From Moritella sp. 5 (lineage in GTDB: Bacteria; Pseudomonadota; Gammaproteobacteria; Enterobacterales; Moritellaceae): a stretch of 64,000 nt of DNA. Position 1 is the first letter of the stretch. Each line of letters begins with the position of its first letter. Of the stretch, positions 5,078-10,519 are shown piece after piece. The position numbers and the translations under genes are program-made. A model generated the notes under the pieces. It saw only the letters and a list, made by a program, of their open reading frames with translations, did not search any database and was not told the DNA's origin. Location: NCBI RefSeq assembly GCF_018219455.1, contig NZ_CP056122.1, positions 1,116,001-1,180,000 on the forward strand. The letters are read 5' to 3'.

Positions 5078-5163
5078 GCCCGAGTGGTGAAATCGGTAGA
5101 CACAAGGGATTTAAAATCCCTCGCTTAATAGGCGTGCCGGTTCAATTCCGGCCTCGGGCACCA
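5078..5163 (+). tRNA. tRNA-Leu(UAA), copy 2
   Basis: An 86-base class II tRNA with anticodon TAA and encoded CCA. It is identical to copies 3, 4 and 5, with T-stem CCGG/CCGG. Confidence 0.97.
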
Positions 5164-5251
5164 ATTAATACTAATACTAGAAATAGTATATCTCGCTAAG
5201 ATGTAAAACTAGCACCCTGTATTAGCAACGAACGTTGTGATGGCAGGATAT

Positions 5252-5325
5252 GGCGGGTTGGCAGAGTGGCTATGCAGCGGATTGCAAATCCGTGGACCTC
5301 GATTCGACTTCGGGACCCGCCTCCA
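5252..5325 (+). tRNA. tRNA-Cys(GCA), copy 2
   Basis: Identical to copy 1 over 74 bases, with anticodon GCA and encoded CCA. Confidence 0.97.
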
Positions 5326-5393
5326 TGATTTAAGCTTGAAAGAGCAAGTTTTTTGGTTCTGCACTGGAACGAATAAACTATAAAAAATTCAGT

Positions 5394-5479
5394 GCCCGAG
5401 TGGTGAAATCGGTAGACACAAGGGATTTAAAATCCCTCGCTTAATAGGCGTGCCGGTTCAATTCCGGCCTCGGGCACCA
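5394..5479 (+). tRNA. tRNA-Leu(UAA), copy 3
   Basis: Identical to copy 2 over 86 bases, with anticodon TAA. Confidence 0.97.
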
Positions 5480-5566
5480 ATTAATACTAATACTAGAAAT
5501 AGTATATCTCGCTAAGATGTAAAATTAGCACTCTGTGTTAACAATTAATTTGTCATCGCAGTATAT

Positions 5567-5640
5567 GGCGGGTTGGCAGAGTGGCTATGCAGCGGATTGC
5601 AAATCCGTGGACCTCGATTCGACTTCGGGACCCGCCTCCA
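5567..5640 (+). tRNA. tRNA-Cys(GCA), copy 3
   Basis: Identical to copies 1 and 2 over 74 bases. A 61-codon open frame that runs through this tRNA and the next is a shadow. Confidence 0.97.
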
Positions 5641-5707
5641 TGATTTAGCTTGTAAAGAGCAAGTTTATTGGTTCTGCACTGGAACCAATAAATTATCAAA
5701 ATTCAGT

Positions 5708-5793
5708 GCCCGAGTGGTGAAATCGGTAGACACAAGGGATTTAAAATCCCTCGCTTAATAGGCGTGCCGGTTCAATTCCGGCCTCGGGCACCA
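5708..5793 (+). tRNA. tRNA-Leu(UAA), copy 4
   Basis: Identical to copy 2 over 86 bases and last in the contiguous array. It is followed directly by a strong terminator. Confidence 0.97.
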
Positions 5794-5802
5794 ACTTTTA
5801 TA

Positions 5803-5830
5803 AAAAAACCAGCTTATAGCTGGTTTTTTT
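5803..5830 (+). terminator. Terminator of the tRNA array
   Basis: AAACCAGCT, TATA and AGCTGGTTT form a tight hairpin with a run of seven T, 10 bases after the last tRNA-Leu of the array. The remaining bases up to 6096 are AT-rich, with a short tandem repeat of TACCGTCTATT and no gene. Confidence 0.9.
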
Positions 5831-6096
5831 ATGTCTAAAATTTACCTTTGTATAAAACTGGTTATTTATTTTTCGGATTATCTGAATTCATCAAAGCCGA
5901 CTTTATCGGGTAACATCTTATATTGTAAATAGTATCTCTGACAGTCGATTTTACAGCTGTGGTTAAAAGAAAGATGATTGATATTGTTTCTGAACTCTGG
6001 TTTATTTCAAGCTTACCGTCTATTACCGTCTATTATCGTTTATATGAAACTATGAAATATTTTATGGTTATTTAGGTTGCCGTTTAGTCAACTTGG

Positions 6097-6654
6097 GTGG
6101 TAAAAGTGAAAGCCAAAAGATATAAAGGTAGTAGCGGTCTTACATTAATAGAATTGGTCGTTGCCGTGATCATATTGGCTGCTTTAGCCGCGGTAGCGTT
6201 ATCTAGGTTCATGCACGTTCACCGCGATGCTAAGATAGTTGCATTATCTAGTATTGCTGCGCAATTGGAAGAGAAAAGTCAGATTGCGCATCTTAAGGCG
6301 CTGGTTGATAATATCCCAGCCGCAGGTGAGTGTACTTTTGGTTGTGATGAGCATGATAATTGGAGTGTCACTAAGGGATATTATTATATTTTCATGGCTG
6401 ATGGTTCAAAGCTGTTTATCCGCGATAGCTATCCATTTTATCAAGGTGAAGAAGATATTCATTTTAAACCTGCAATGGGTTTAAGTGATAGTCAGTTTGT
6501 TTTTGTTGAAGGAGCCACGTTGAAAATTATTCCTAGGAGTTGGAAAAATGAACGTTCTGAGATAACAAATCATAATGTTAAATGTTATGTCGAATATGAA
6601 AACGCGGCTGAAACACGTAAGAATATAATAACAGTACACAGTGTTGATTGTTAA
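6097..6654 (+). CDS. Type IV pilin-like (prepilin N-terminal methylation) protein
   Basis: A 185-residue protein with a short basic leader ending in SSG, then LTLIELVVAVIILAALAAVA, the class III signal cut by a prepilin peptidase, with Glu at mature position 5. The globular part has Cys pairs (ECTFGC and the C-terminal NVKCY...VDC) suited to a pseudopilin disulfide. It could be a minor pilin or a type II secretion-like pseudopilin; no assembly gene is nearby. The frame opens at GTG 6097. GTG 6106, preceded by GGGTGG, is an alternative start giving a 182-residue protein. It sits alone between the tRNA array terminator and a fifth tRNA-Leu, an unusual place that suggests insertion by transfer or duplication. 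Confidence 0.85.
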   Translation: MVKVKAKRYKGSSGLTLIELVVAVIILAALAAVALSRFMHVHRDAKIVALSSIAAQLEEKSQIAHLKALVDNIPAAGECTFGCDEHDNWSVTKGYYYIFMADGSKLFIRDSYPFYQGEEDIHFKPAMGLSDSQFVFVEGATLKIIPRSWKNERSEITNHNVKCYVEYENAAETRKNIITVHSVDC

Positions 6655-6719
6655 ATCGTTGTGATTATGAGCATATTGAATTTATTTTCAACCATCTGAT
6701 ATCTATGTAAAGGTTTTCA

Positions 6720-6747
6720 TTGACTCATATTTAGAATACGGTAAAGT
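6720..6747 (+). promoter_or_regulatory. Promoter of fifth tRNA-Leu
   Basis: TTGACT (6720-6725), a 16-base spacer and TAAAGT (6742-6747) mirror the layout at 4721-4748, 45 bases before the tRNA. The -10 box is a weaker match to consensus. Confidence 0.5.
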
Positions 6748-6791
6748 AAGCGCATATCCGGTTAGGCAGCAGCTTAACAGTTTATCACTCA

Positions 6792-6877
6792 GCCCGAGTG
6801 GTGAAATCGGTAGACACAAGGGATTTAAAATCCCTCGCTTAATAGGCGTGCCGGTTCAATTCCGGCCTCGGGCACCA
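6792..6877 (+). tRNA. tRNA-Leu(UAA), copy 5
   Basis: Identical to copies 2-4 but separated from them by about 1 kb containing the pilin-like gene. It has its own promoter and terminator. Confidence 0.97.
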
Positions 6878-6884
6878 AATTTAG

Positions 6885-6916
6885 AAAAAGGCTTACCTTA
6901 ACGGTAAGCCTTTTTT
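6885..6916 (+). terminator. Terminator after fifth tRNA-Leu
   Basis: AAAGGCTTACC and GGTAAGCCTTT flank a short loop and run into six T, starting 8 bases after the tRNA. Confidence 0.9.
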
Positions 6917-7001
6917 GCTTTCTGGCATTTAAAATAATCCTTGTATCTTTAAACTCGAGTGATTATGATATCTAATTATCCTTTACGGTTATTTATCTTC
7001 T

Positions 7002-7469
7002 ATGCTACTTCGGTTGATGCGCTATTTTACTCTGTTGTTTGTTATGGTTATGGGCTTTAATGCTCAGGCTGACACAGAATTAGCGATATCATCAAAACCG
7101 TTATTAGCGCCAGTCTCTTTACTTGTAAATGCAAATGAAGCGGGTATTGCTTACCAAGATCTCGGTGAATCAGAACAACCTTCTGTATCATTACCAATTC
7201 ATGCTTATGAATTTGCTTTAACGGAAACCTCTCGTTATACCAGTGCTGGTCGCTTACTGTTAAATAATCCTGAACCGGACTATCAGATAGAGATTGAATT
7301 ATCTATTCCACCATCGCCGTCTTTTGTGATTGGCTATGCGGTTAATATTAATTTTTATCAACATTGGTTGACTCAGATATCGTGTTCTAAGTCTCGACTA
7401 TCGGGCTGGAAAGACAGTAATCTTTTATATTCCCACCGTCAGTATCCTGCTGTTATTACATTTGTTTAG
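7002..7469 (+). CDS. vemP: VemP-like Sec-monitoring translation-arrest peptide
   Basis: A 155-residue protein with a cleavable signal peptide (hydrophobic run 8-20, AQA at 21-23). The mature part is short and matches no enzyme I know. Residues 132-143 read RLSGWKDSNLLY. As I recall it, the arrest core of Vibrio alginolyticus VemP reads RISGWKETNAMY, so eight of twelve positions are identical and the rest mostly conservative. VemP (159 residues) stalls ribosomes near its C-terminus when Sec export is slow, which turns on the downstream secDF2. Here length, signal peptide, C-terminal location of the motif and the secD-secF pair downstream all agree. The function is inferred. No strong Shine-Dalgarno is seen; ATG 7017 is an alternative start. 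Confidence 0.82.
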   Translation: MLLRLMRYFTLLFVMVMGFNAQADTELAISSKPLLAPVSLLVNANEAGIAYQDLGESEQPSVSLPIHAYEFALTETSRYTSAGRLLLNNPEPDYQIEIELSIPPSPSFVIGYAVNINFYQHWLTQISCSKSRLSGWKDSNLLYSHRQYPAVITFV

Positions 7470-7684
7470 ACAAAAATGTAAGTATTAAACACACTGCTTT
7501 TTTGTTGCCTTTATTATCTGCTTATATTCCCTAAAGAGTTCTATAAATAGCGCCGTATATGGTATTGCAAATAGTGCAAACGTACTGTAAATAGCGTTTT
7601 TAATGGTCCTATTGTCAGCGAGTTATAAGCGAGTTAATCACCTATATGCCACCGCTTTAATTTTATAAACGGTACTTATATAAC

Positions 7685-7720
7685 GCACTATTTATATACA
7701 GAAAACAGTATATAAATGGT
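7685..7720 (+). promoter_or_regulatory. Leader hairpin before secD, with a competing upstream pairing
   Basis: ACTATTTATATAC (7687-7699) and GTATATAAATGGT (7708-7720) form a 13-bp stem with one G-U pair and an 8-base loop, 22 bases before the preferred secD start. The left arm is also complementary over 9 bases (7685-7693) to AAATAGTGC at 7569-7577, so two structures exclude each other. In Vibrio, stalling on VemP remodels an mRNA hairpin that hides the secD2 ribosome binding site. Whether this one does so is inference. Confidence 0.5.
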
Positions 7721-7742
7721 CTTTATGTAAAGCTTGGCATTG

Positions 7743-9581
7743 ATGGACTGCTATCAAATGACAAAAATAACAAATTCAAAAGTTCAACGTAAACGGCTTA
7801 ACCATTATGCAGGTTGGAAGTATGTGGTTTTAATCTGTACTGTCTTAATTATGCTATTAAGTGCGATCCCTACTATATATGGTGAAGATCCTGCACTGCA
7901 AATTAACCATAAACAAGGTCAACAACCCGCTATTCACGTGCTTAAGCAGGCACTAGAAGAAAGTAATATTGCGGTAACACGTATCGATCAAGATATGGAT
8001 AAAACCACGATAGTGTTAACAGGCTCAAGCTCTCAAACACGTGCTAAGGCGATACTCGAAGCCACATTGCCAGCAGATGATGATATTACTTTAGCACTCG
8101 TTTCTGCCGCACCGTTTTGGTTACAGAGTATGGGATTGAAGCCAATCAAATTAGGCTTAGATCTACGTGGTGGTGTGCAGTTCTTGCTAGATGTTGATAT
8201 GGAACCTGTATTCAATATCAGATCACAGCAATTGGTAGATAGTTTACGTTCTGATTTTCGTGAGGAAGGGTTTCGAGGTGTTCGAATTAGCATTAATCAT
8301 AATAATAGTTTGCAACTGAACTTGCCCACCGATGAAGCAAAAGTCACATTATTGAAATTAATGCACAACAGTTATCCGCAATGGAAAGTAACTCAGAGTT
8401 CGGGGTTATTGGTTGAGGTGAGTATTCCGAAAACTGAAAAGACAGACATCATTAACCTGACAGTGCAGCAAAACTTGCAAACTATGCGCAGTCGTATCGC
8501 AGAGTTAGGTATTACTGAAGCGATGGTTCAGCGTCAAGGTGAGCATCGTATCCGTATTGAATTACCCGGTGTGCAAGATCCGGCGACGGCAAAAAATGTA
8601 ATAGGTGCAACCGCGAGCCTAGCATTCCACGAACTTGAAACCGTGCGCAATGGCAGCATGCTGGTTAACAATAACGATGGTATGCCAATCCGCATTGCGC
8701 GTGATGCTATTTTGGGTGGTGAACACATTATTGATGCTCGAGCCAGTGTTGGTGAAATAGGGGCGGCAGAGGTTAATATTACGTTAGATAATGCGGGGGG
8801 GAAAAAAATGTCGAGCTTTACCAAGCATAATATTGGTAAGCCGATGGCAACGCTCTACAGCGAGTACAGTCGTAACGCGGATGGTTCCACTAAAAAGACC
8901 AACAATATTATTAGTGTTGCTACTATTCAAGCCCAGCTAGGCAGTCAATTTAGAATCACGGGTGCAGGGAATATGGCTGATGCACAAGAGCTTGCATTGT
9001 TGCTACGTGCAGGGTCGTTAACTGCACCTGTGACGATTGTTGAAGAAAGAACGATAGGTCCTTCACTGGGGGCCGATAATATTCAAAATGGCTTCTCAGC
9101 ATTAGCGCTCGGGCTGGGTTTAACCTTGGTATTTATGGCGCTGTGGTATCGCCGTCTAGGCTGGGTTGCGAATATAGCACTCATTGCTAATATTATTATT
9201 TTATTTGGCCTATTAGCCCTGATTCCAGGTGCTGTATTAACGCTACCTGGTATTGCAGGGTTAGTACTGACTGTTGGTATGGCCGTCGATACAAATGTAC
9301 TAGTGTTTGAGCGTATTCGAGATAAATTACGAGAAGGACGTAGTTTTGCACAAGCCATTGACCGTGGTTTTGATAGTGCATTTGCTACGATTGTTGATGC
9401 CAATATCACCACCTTAATTATTGCGGTTGTACTGTATTCGATCGGCAGGGGACCCGTGCAAGGATTCGCTTTAACGCTGGGCTTAGGTATTTTAACCAGT
9501 ATGTTTACAGGCATCTTAGTATCACGTGCATTAATTAATAAATTATGGGGTCGTGATACTCGTCATGACTTGAAGGTATAA
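7743..9581 (+). CDS. secD: Protein-export membrane protein SecD (SecD2-like)
   Basis: A SecD of 612 residues. An N-terminal helix (about 27-46) is followed by the large periplasmic region, which starts with the conserved GLDLRGGVQFLLDVD. Five membrane helices at the C-terminus include TLPGIAGLVLTVGMAVDTNV with the family's cation-coupling region. SecDF uses the ion gradient to pull preproteins out of SecYEG. There is no yajC or tgt upstream, unlike the housekeeping operon. Together with the VemP-like gene this suggests the second, inducible SecDF2. Open frame starts at TTG 7734; ATG 7743 and ATG 7758 are candidates, and neither has a strong Shine-Dalgarno, consistent with a controlled start. 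Confidence 0.93.
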   Translation: MDCYQMTKITNSKVQRKRLNHYAGWKYVVLICTVLIMLLSAIPTIYGEDPALQINHKQGQQPAIHVLKQALEESNIAVTRIDQDMDKTTIVLTGSSSQTRAKAILEATLPADDDITLALVSAAPFWLQSMGLKPIKLGLDLRGGVQFLLDVDMEPVFNIRSQQLVDSLRSDFREEGFRGVRISINHNNSLQLNLPTDEAKVTLLKLMHNSYPQWKVTQSSGLLVEVSIPKTEKTDIINLTVQQNLQTMRSRIAELGITEAMVQRQGEHRIRIELPGVQDPATAKNVIGATASLAFHELETVRNGSMLVNNNDGMPIRIARDAILGGEHIIDARASVGEIGAAEVNITLDNAGGKKMSSFTKHNIGKPMATLYSEYSRNADGSTKKTNNIISVATIQAQLGSQFRITGAGNMADAQELALLLRAGSLTAPVTIVEERTIGPSLGADNIQNGFSALALGLGLTLVFMALWYRRLGWVANIALIANIIILFGLLALIPGAVLTLPGIAGLVLTVGMAVDTNVLVFERIRDKLREGRSFAQAIDRGFDSAFATIVDANITTLIIAVVLYSIGRGPVQGFALTLGLGILTSMFTGILVSRALINKLWGRDTRHDLKV

Positions 9582-9583
9582 TA

Positions 9584-10519
9584 ATGATGACTATCAATAT
9601 AAACAATAGTAACAAAAACAATAGTAATAACTACAGTCAATTACGTTATATCAGCAGTGCGATATCAGTGGTTTTTATGCTTGTTGCGATCGCATTTCTT
9701 AGTATTAATGGACTGAATTGGGGGGTAGACTTCACTGGTGGTGTTATTACTGAAGTGCAGATGGATCCAACGATCACAATGAGTGAGATTTCGCCTTTAT
9801 TACAATCGGCATTGAACCAAAATGTTAATGTTATTGAAGGGGGTGAGATGGGGCGGTGGATCTTACGCTACGCGGAACCAGCGAATGGTATGGGTATTCC
9901 GAATATCACAGAGGTACTCGCGCCATTATCAACAAATATTCAAGTACTAAACACCAGTATTGTCGGATCTCAAGTTGGACAAGAGTTAGCGGAACAAGGT
10001 GGCCTAGCGATCTTAGTCTCGATGTTGTGTATCATGGCGTATTTAAGTTATCGCTTTGAGTGGCGCCTAGCGTCGGGTGCATTATTTGCCTTGTTGCATG
10101 ATGTCTTATTTGTACTTGGGGTGTTTGCTGCATTACAACTCGAGTTTAACTTGACGGTATTTGCGGCGATATTGGCGATTATCGGTTATTCATTAAATGA
10201 TTCTATTATTATTGGGGATCGTATCCGCGAGTTACTTATTCTTAAGCCTAATTTAGCCATTGCTGATGTGAATAATGATGCGATTGGGTCAACTCTATCG
10301 CGCACAATGGTGACATCTGGAACAACCTTAATGACGGTCTCGGCATTGTGGTTACTTGGGGGCGAACCTTTGAATGGATTCTCTGTTGCGATGTTCATTG
10401 GTTTAATTGTCGGTACATGGTCATCGATTGCTGTTTCGACTACATTACCTGAATTCTGGGGGTTAAATGCCCGACATTATCAGGTCGTTGAGTTGAAAGA
10501 GGGGGGTTACGAAGACTAA
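9584..10519 (+). CDS. secF: Protein-export membrane protein SecF (SecF2-like)
   Basis: A 311-residue partner of SecD. The first helix (about 26-44) runs into LNWGVDFTGGVITEVQ, the SecF family signature, then a short periplasmic domain and five helices, with IIGYSLNDSIIIGDRIRE in the fourth. GAAGG sits 7 bases before the ATG and the gap to secD is 2 bases, so translation is coupled. It ends with an acidic tail. The 275 bases that follow hold a weak GC-rich hairpin near 10544-10571 and the flrA leader, but no gene. Confidence 0.94.
   Translation: MMTININNSNKNNSNNYSQLRYISSAISVVFMLVAIAFLSINGLNWGVDFTGGVITEVQMDPTITMSEISPLLQSALNQNVNVIEGGEMGRWILRYAEPANGMGIPNITEVLAPLSTNIQVLNTSIVGSQVGQELAEQGGLAILVSMLCIMAYLSYRFEWRLASGALFALLHDVLFVLGVFAALQLEFNLTVFAAILAIIGYSLNDSIIIGDRIRELLILKPNLAIADVNNDAIGSTLSRTMVTSGTTLMTVSALWLLGGEPLNGFSVAMFIGLIVGTWSSIAVSTTLPEFWGLNARHYQVVELKEGGYED

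Follow-up and report, generated by a model that had tools for sequence, protein, structure and literature searches.

Within a 64,000-nt stretch of the Moritella sp. 5 genome (contig NZ_CP056122.1; the whole stretch is called the window below, and positions count from its first letter), an open reading frame (ORF) of 155 codons plus stop lies directly 5' of secD and secF. The ORF begins with ATG, and its product carries RLSGWKDSNLLY at residues 132-143, an instance of the pattern R...WK..N..Y found in VemP, a translation-arrest peptide of Vibrio alginolyticus. The N-terminus of this VemP-like product is MLLRLMRYFTLLFVMVMGFNAQADT, its terminal portion is SRLSGWKDSNLLYSHRQYPAVITFV, and its C-terminal end reads SHRQYPAVITFV. 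A six-frame search of the window finds the pattern a single time; its probability per position is 2e-8 given the window's composition, and a chance motif was ruled out on these grounds.

The product probably begins with a signal peptide. As judged by eye, R4 and R7 are followed by a hydrophobic stretch and then NAQA-DT, and N20-A21-Q22-A23 are unchanged in all 11 Moritella sequences. Across these 11 genomes, the ratio of nonsynonymous to synonymous change (pN/pS) is 0.33 for the gene overall. A search of Pfam and NCBIfam with the product gave no family at E ≤ 1. The genes downstream match models NF009545 (secD, 982 bits against a cut-off of 728) and TIGR00966 (secF, 260.9 bits against 160), and the stretch singled out by the initial annotation ends at 9581, the 3' end of secD. 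For secD, ATG 7758 is more likely to be the start than TTG 7734, because the NCBIfam model begins at residue 15 of the TTG frame and because a one-base difference in a congener (G007) throws ATG 7743 out of the secD frame. Coordinates are collected in Table 1.

Table 1. Features at the vemP-like locus, in window coordinates
Feature	Position	Strand	Evidence
tRNA-Leu (taa), 5' of vemP	6792..6877	+	ARAGORN; Rfam tRNA; 3' end present in 11/11 Moritella
Terminator-like hairpin and T run, between tRNA and vemP	6884..6916	+	fold -19.4 kcal/mol; 11/11 Moritella by eye
Promoter-like TTGTAT, 17 nt, TATGAT (putative)	6941..6969	+	by eye; TATGAT in 11/11 Moritella
Signal peptide, predicted cleavage after A23	7002..7070	+	by eye; NAQA invariant 11/11
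vemP-like gene, 155 codons plus stop	7002..7469	+	ORF, congeners, profile comparison
Q59-P60-S61, candidate counterpart of VemP QxP element	7176..7184	+	genus alignment; element as given in PMC11470409
R78, counterpart of VemP Arg-85, after hydrophobic FAL (71-73)	7233..7235	+	11/11 invariant; profile-aligned
Arrest core, residues 132-143	7395..7430	+	sequence, family profiles, constraint
SHRQYP, residues 144-149, proximal to the peptidyl transferase center; P149 (7446-7448) predicted P-site codon	7431..7448	+	pN/pS; stall position predicted
Codons 150-155, weak constraint at the protein level and low pS; possible role as RNA	7449..7466	+	pN/pS
P1 5' arm, within vemP codons 150-155; partner 7747-7763 (secD start region)	7451..7465	+	RNAalifold; 90% cells paired
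Hairpin P3, just after vemP stop	7469..7506	+	RNAalifold; 97.2% cells paired
Helix P4, arms 7519-7525 / 7625-7631	7519..7631	+	RNAalifold; 93.5% cells paired
Helix P2, arms 7641-7651 / 7735-7746	7641..7746	+	RNAalifold; 96.0% cells paired
secD (SecD2-type)	7758..9581	+	NCBIfam, congeners, SecD tree; frame open from TTG 7734
secF	9584..10519	+	ORF, TIGR00966

Homology to VemP and linkage to a second SecD

When the protein was searched singly against the chain sequences of the Protein Data Bank (PDB), the VemP nascent chain of 5nwy was the best of four matches, with an E value of 0.17 over residues 33-144, which is suggestive only. We then compared a profile of the 11 Moritella sequences with one built from seven aligned Vibrio-type VemPs having a VxLN tail. 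This comparison gave a probability of 97.8 and an E value of 7.3e-13 over 73 columns. The aligned part, residues 70-144, runs from the hydrophobic stretch before the counterpart of Arg-85 to the residue after the core Tyr. The weak single-sequence match might leave room for chance or convergence in the core, but the profile comparison, the orthology of the linked SecD (see below) and the existence of intermediates in ten or more families make this explanation extremely unlikely.

In the first of our Vibrio-type VemPs (L109), P67, R85, R139, W143, K144, N147, Y150 and N154 all fall where the published numbering puts them (residue numbers as given in PMC5449182 and PMC11470409). R78 and R132 of the Moritella peptide are each offset by -7 from R85 and R139 of VemP, and the FAL stretch before R78 is shorter than the LALF of VemP. 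Q59 and P61 of the genus alignment may correspond to VemP Q65 and P67, with distances to the Arg of 19 and 17 residues versus 20 and 18.

As a query, the protein found a match in 18 of 59 genomes (11/11 of its own genus and 7/48 others of the order). A profile of 17 sequences (A1), applied to 394 genomes of the order, picked out 82 at E ≤ 1e-3, in 19 of 115 genera, and a second profile of 46 sequences (A2) matched 88 of the 394 at E ≤ 1e-4. One of the 82 (G051, family f19) is probably false: its stretch holds no ORF with the core, and A2 does not match it. Weak matches (E 6e-6 to 9e-5) in three genomes of family f15 (G024, G048 and G100) are perhaps more diverged members of the family. In a class-wide draw of 369 genomes, nothing credible was found outside the order. 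The three matches were the Moritella genome itself, a genome of the same order (G015) and G642, whose match (E 6e-5) falls within a 685-residue frame and was taken as chance. Scanning named genomes for the pattern turned up 308 candidates, of which 151 were confirmed. The best 80 of these 151 come from Moritella, Photobacterium, Shewanella, Vibrio, Aliivibrio, Enterovibrio, Ferrimonas, Motilimonas and one 'Vibrionales bacterium'. Also among the 80 is a locus (L139) in a record labelled Marinobacter nauticus DP3N21-5; this label may be wrong, because all other named matches belong to one order.

The peptide is closely tied to secD. Among 84 stretches, 73 have the exact core; of the 11 without it, nine have a near core, one (L090) has Arg for the core Trp and one (L108) has none. 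secD lies just 3' in 65 of the 73 exact-core stretches and in 73 of the best 80 of the 151 named loci. The other seven named loci include two that lack the core by pattern but have a SecD match, and one at a contig end.

We counted SecDs in 50 genomes, which were chosen by hand rather than drawn at random. At least two were present in all 30 carriers with a secD-linked peptide (27 have two and 3 have three), compared to one each in the six carriers whose peptide is unlinked to secD. Of 14 genomes unmatched by A1, ten have one SecD and four have two, and in two of these four (G024 and G048) the weak match noted above lies beside the second secD. The Moritella genome has two SecDs, which fall in different clades. 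In a tree of 36 SecDs, again with hand-chosen rows (L170 yielded no SecD and dropped out), the 21 VemP-linked sequences form one clade (100/100), apart from 15 unlinked ones, among them the main SecD of Moritella, SecD1 of Vibrio and the SecD of E. coli. By this tree, the linked SecD of Moritella is orthologous to the SecD linked with Vibrio-type VemP. Long branches were seen for Ferrimonas SecD2 (L133) and L045.

The initial annotation had proposed, from the core and an apparent signal peptide, that this 155-residue gene before secD encodes a VemP-like peptide and that no annotated family would cover it. Both expectations held, and the two computational checks that it named, alignment with VemP homologues and conservation of the secDF neighbor, came out in its favor. 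Its remark that the protein has little likeness to VemP outside the core was too pessimistic, given that residues 70-144 align.

The Moritella peptide thus resembles V. alginolyticus VemP in its signal peptide, its R...WK..N..Y core, its counterpart of Arg-85, the second secDF downstream and the orthology of the SecD encoded there. The sizes are also similar (155 versus 159 residues). The spacer between vemP and secD in Moritella is 265 nt (from TTG) or 288 nt (from ATG), and its sequence is unlike the leader of V. alginolyticus. A 2024 survey (PMC10987492) describes a VemP-like cluster of upstream ORFs (uORFs) from 339 genomes, with RxxxWKxxNxxY upstream of secDF. The Moritella peptide shares the features of this cluster: a small same-strand ORF directly 5' of secDF, an N-terminal signal (by eye), the motif, and homology beyond it. 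We file the peptide as VemP-like in the sense of that survey and not as V. alginolyticus-type, because VxLN proximal to the peptidyl transferase center (PTC) and Q156 are absent. Its presence in Moritella may already be covered by the 339 genomes and hence not be new. Our literature search found no paper naming both VemP and Moritella. VemP and Shewanella are named together in existing literature. Two other kinds of arrest peptide were also compared. SecM of E. coli shares the secretion-monitor logic but controls secA, and its motif FxxxxWIxxxxGIRAGP (as given in PMC10987492) is absent from the Moritella peptide. The RAPP-like uDF_RQH peptides, described in the same source, are likewise uORFs of secDF in this order, but the Moritella peptide contains no RAPP, RGPP, HAPP or QAPP.

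Constraint at the C-terminus and the predicted stall register

The structure of VemP on the ribosome is known, and the block is attributed to a helix on the PTC side together with N154 (PMC5449182). The Moritella peptide matches the V. alginolyticus sequence HRIxGWKETNAMYVxLNxx (as given in PMC7897499) only up to the Tyr: SHRQYP stands in place of VALNSQ, and S131 in place of VemP H138. To examine how this part of the protein is constrained, we calculated pN/pS by segment for the 11 Moritella genomes. Values are 0.18 for residues 80-121, 0.12 for the core (132-143) and 0.09 for residues 144-149, compared to 0.82 for residues 150-155. The constrained segment after the core has the consensus SHR(Q/L)(Y/F)P, and P149 is identical in all 11. 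In codons 150-155, pS is also low (0.249, versus 0.438 overall). Constraint on the peptide stops after P149, which is Tyr143+6 and lies in the same register as Gln156 of VemP, or Tyr150+6. The boundary of constraint falls at the VemP stall register, and therefore it is probably the letters near the PTC that have changed and not the place of the stall. The initial annotation was right that the segment after Tyr143 differs from Vibrio; its suggestion that the stall site may have shifted is not favored by this register.

These values bear on two alternatives. One is that the Moritella peptide is a VemP homologue that has lost arrest, its altered tail being a product of decay. The tail is indeed unlike the Vibrio type, and P61 is lost in this species, but a pN/pS of 0.09 over 11 species, with P149 never varying, shows that the altered segment is kept as peptide, and we regard this alternative as very improbable. 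A decayed or frameshifted tail was ruled out by pN/pS. The other, which we consider possible but doubtful, is that the peptide stalls by another block or at a nearby place instead of through a PTC-silencing helix. One example would be a proline-type block in which Y148 occupies the P site and P149 the A site; different codons close to the C-terminus are another option. In keeping with such alternatives, the constrained segment ends in YP or FP in 11/11 Moritella, and Aliivibrio peptides have LYPH or LFPA at an equal distance from the Tyr. Arguing against it, the constraint boundary matches the VemP register within one codon, and VemP with an A-site proline is reported to arrest less well (PMC7897499).

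The order-wide sequences place the Moritella tail in a wider setting. Of the 82 sequences, 73 have the strict core, but VxLN after the core Tyr is found in only seven, all from genus g21 of family f21; the other 75 have some other tail, which also suits a block other than the PTC-silencing helix. Tail classes track clades (e.g. SHFRELLS, RFSQQAA, xxxxTYH and (I/L)PQQY). Six Aliivibrio peptides terminate soon after a segment similar to that of Moritella (SQRLYPHS, SQRLYPHA or SHRLFPAA). Between the core and the C-terminus lie 6-14 residues in all but one of the 82 sequences, and exactly 8 residues follow the last core residue in 39. Judged from these alignments, the order-wide pattern is one of a fixed tunnel anchor and a variable PTC-proximal segment.

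The same comparison bears on whether the gene simply encodes a small secreted protein with its own periplasmic function, the C-terminal motif and the adjacency to secDF being unrelated to arrest. Constraint on residues 80-121, outside the core, could be explained in this way, and arrest of the Moritella peptide is something that we infer. Several features argue against such a function. Ten or more families of a single order retain the core anchor residues, and these invariant residues are the ones that contact the ribosome in VemP (contacts as given in PMC5449182). Outside the core, the sequences have diverged to ~20% identity across families; the protein nearly always ends shortly past the core; and the gene precedes secD in most loci. 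We therefore consider a separate periplasmic function very improbable.

Leader RNA and a proposed mechanism

In V. alginolyticus, VemP controls secD2F2 and its signal is low sodium; SecDF1 is sodium-driven and SecDF2 is proton-driven. We consider it very likely that the Moritella VemP-like peptide is a secreted monitor whose stalling of the ribosome that translates it governs the second secDF pair. The sequences show that the gene is conserved, homologous to vemP and linked to an orthologous SecD, and where constraint on the peptide ends; how and where it stalls, how it is released, how the RNA would switch and what is sensed are inferred, as follows. The signal peptide would deliver the nascent chain to the Sec translocon, while R132, W136, K137, N140 and Y143 would anchor the chain in the tunnel, like the same residues of VemP. 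Elongation would halt with approximately P149 in the P site. As long as export is working, pulling by Sec would release the chain, the timing being set by R78 and the brief hydrophobic run that precedes this residue. If export failed, the ribosome would stay in place, the end of vemP could not pair with the secD start region, and secD2F2 would be translated.

An RNA switch of this kind is part of the VemP model, in which the stalled ribosome opens a structure masking secD2 (PMC7793623). To look for a comparable structure, we aligned the region from the end of vemP to the start of secD in the 11 genomes, which revealed conserved islands within a fast-changing spacer. RNAalifold predicted four helices, P1-P4, with both-sided change in 5 of 49 pairs. 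In P1, the last codons of vemP would base-pair with the start region of secD; P2 would occlude the sequence 5' of that start. Covariation in P2 is modest (its score was reached by 9/500 shuffles), and P4 is less well supported (24/500 shuffles for cells paired and 167/500 for score). The single-sequence fold of the leader has a z score of -2.1. A search for known RNA families in the leader yielded only the tRNA and a match below the gathering score on the tRNA's opposite strand. Masking of secD by leader RNA is thus only partly supported; it fits the VemP model without proving it.

A number of observations weigh against the mechanism as proposed. First, Moritella lacks the VxLN(S)Q that V. alginolyticus has near the PTC, including the N154 that contacts 23S rRNA; Q147 or L147 occupies that place instead. 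Second, Q59 and P61 are nearly invariant across the genus, but position 61 is Ser in this species. Third, no clear Shine-Dalgarno sequence was seen by eye before the vemP start (6970-7001) in this genome or ten congeners. The RNA evidence is also mixed. The RNAalifold covariation term is unfavorable overall (+1.29), and no covariation was found for P1 or P3 in the 11 genomes. In a scan in which the leading edge of a ribosome advanced along vemP (37 C), the secD start region became freer by ~0.1 at the predicted stall in the window species and G009 only; the change was at most 0.05 in 8 of the 11 genomes and was -0.06 in G001.

Upstream of vemP, the terminator-like hairpin between the tRNA and the gene probably means that vemP has its own promoter. 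The hairpin at 6884-6916 was not listed by a consensus terminator scan, nor the candidate promoter at 6941-6969 by a promoter scan in which promoters were no commoner than in shuffles; across the window, neither type of scan gave anything above shuffles. Further upstream (5078-6877) lie a tandem tRNA array (Leu-Cys-Leu-Cys-Leu), a pilin-like gene (6097-6654) and then a fourth tRNA-Leu (taa).

VemP-like peptides before genes other than secDF

In some members of the order, the VemP-like peptide lies before other genes. In four loci of family f18, L092 (G295), L098 (G377), L101 (G257) and L103 (G323), it lies ~140-330 nt before a DedA-family gene, an assignment for which the VTT domain was tested in L098 and L092. 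The gene after dedA in these loci is MzrA-like (in L098 it is MzrA by NCBIfam, 155 bits, cut-off 89), and a yqjC-like gene follows in some of them. Each of these four genomes has a single SecD, and the f18 SecD in our tree is sister to E. coli SecD. In E. coli K-12 itself, the yqjA leader contains the 27-codon yqiM and other frames, none with the core. Our literature search found no paper naming both an arrest peptide and DedA.

In Vibrio comitans (L170), V. inusitatus (L180) and G306 (L073), the peptide precedes a gene for a ChaA-like cation/proton antiporter. Pfam Na_Ca_ex was found in L170 and L073. The NCBIfam ChaA model reached 312 bits in L170, short of the 505 that it requires. The ChaA-like gene of L073 is followed by one of the DedA family. 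Photobacterium lutimaris JCM 13586 has two VemP-like peptides, one with secD (L118) and the other (L142:3183-4785) followed by a frame of 118 codons and a gene of the DedA family. Finally, in two f16 loci (L097 and L100) and two loci of genus g28 in family f5 (L102 and L104), the peptide stands directly before an S41 peptidase gene. This family was tested with Pfam in L100 and L102 and judged by eye in L097 and L104; the L097 peptidase is split over two frames, and the g28 peptides have WR instead of WK in the core.

Two further loci were noted. In Vibrio sp. D404a (L136), a ChaA-like remnant alone follows the peptide, and in G342 (L090), where the core Trp has changed to Arg, no secD follows. 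Peptide and target may decay together in these two genomes.

The dedA, chaA-like and S41 loci would have been missed by the 2024 screen because, according to PMC10987492, it covered only regions upstream of secA, secDF and yidC. Loss of the DedA genes yqjA and yghB is reported to make E. coli sensitive to alkaline pH (PMC10846249), a phenotype that would suit a sensor of energization. Tentatively, and at somewhat less than even confidence, we suggest that VemP is one branch of an order-wide set of nascent-chain sensors, each with a fixed tunnel anchor and an interchangeable PTC segment of which the Moritella one is an alternative. Such sensors may have moved also before dedA-mzrA, chaA-like (once together with dedA) and S41 genes. 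They could report in general on export and on how well the membrane is energized, and so drive genes of ion homeostasis in addition to secDF, with VemP-type arrest being released by the ion-driven export motor.

VemP has been described as confined to Vibrio (PMC8887479 and PMC11470409), and the order-wide spread goes against this. That the PTC segment is under selection and yet has been exchanged opens to direct test what portion of VemP is required and whether a single tunnel anchor is compatible with several kinds of PTC block. A broader role for these peptides is suggested by the copies upstream of dedA, chaA-like and S41 genes.

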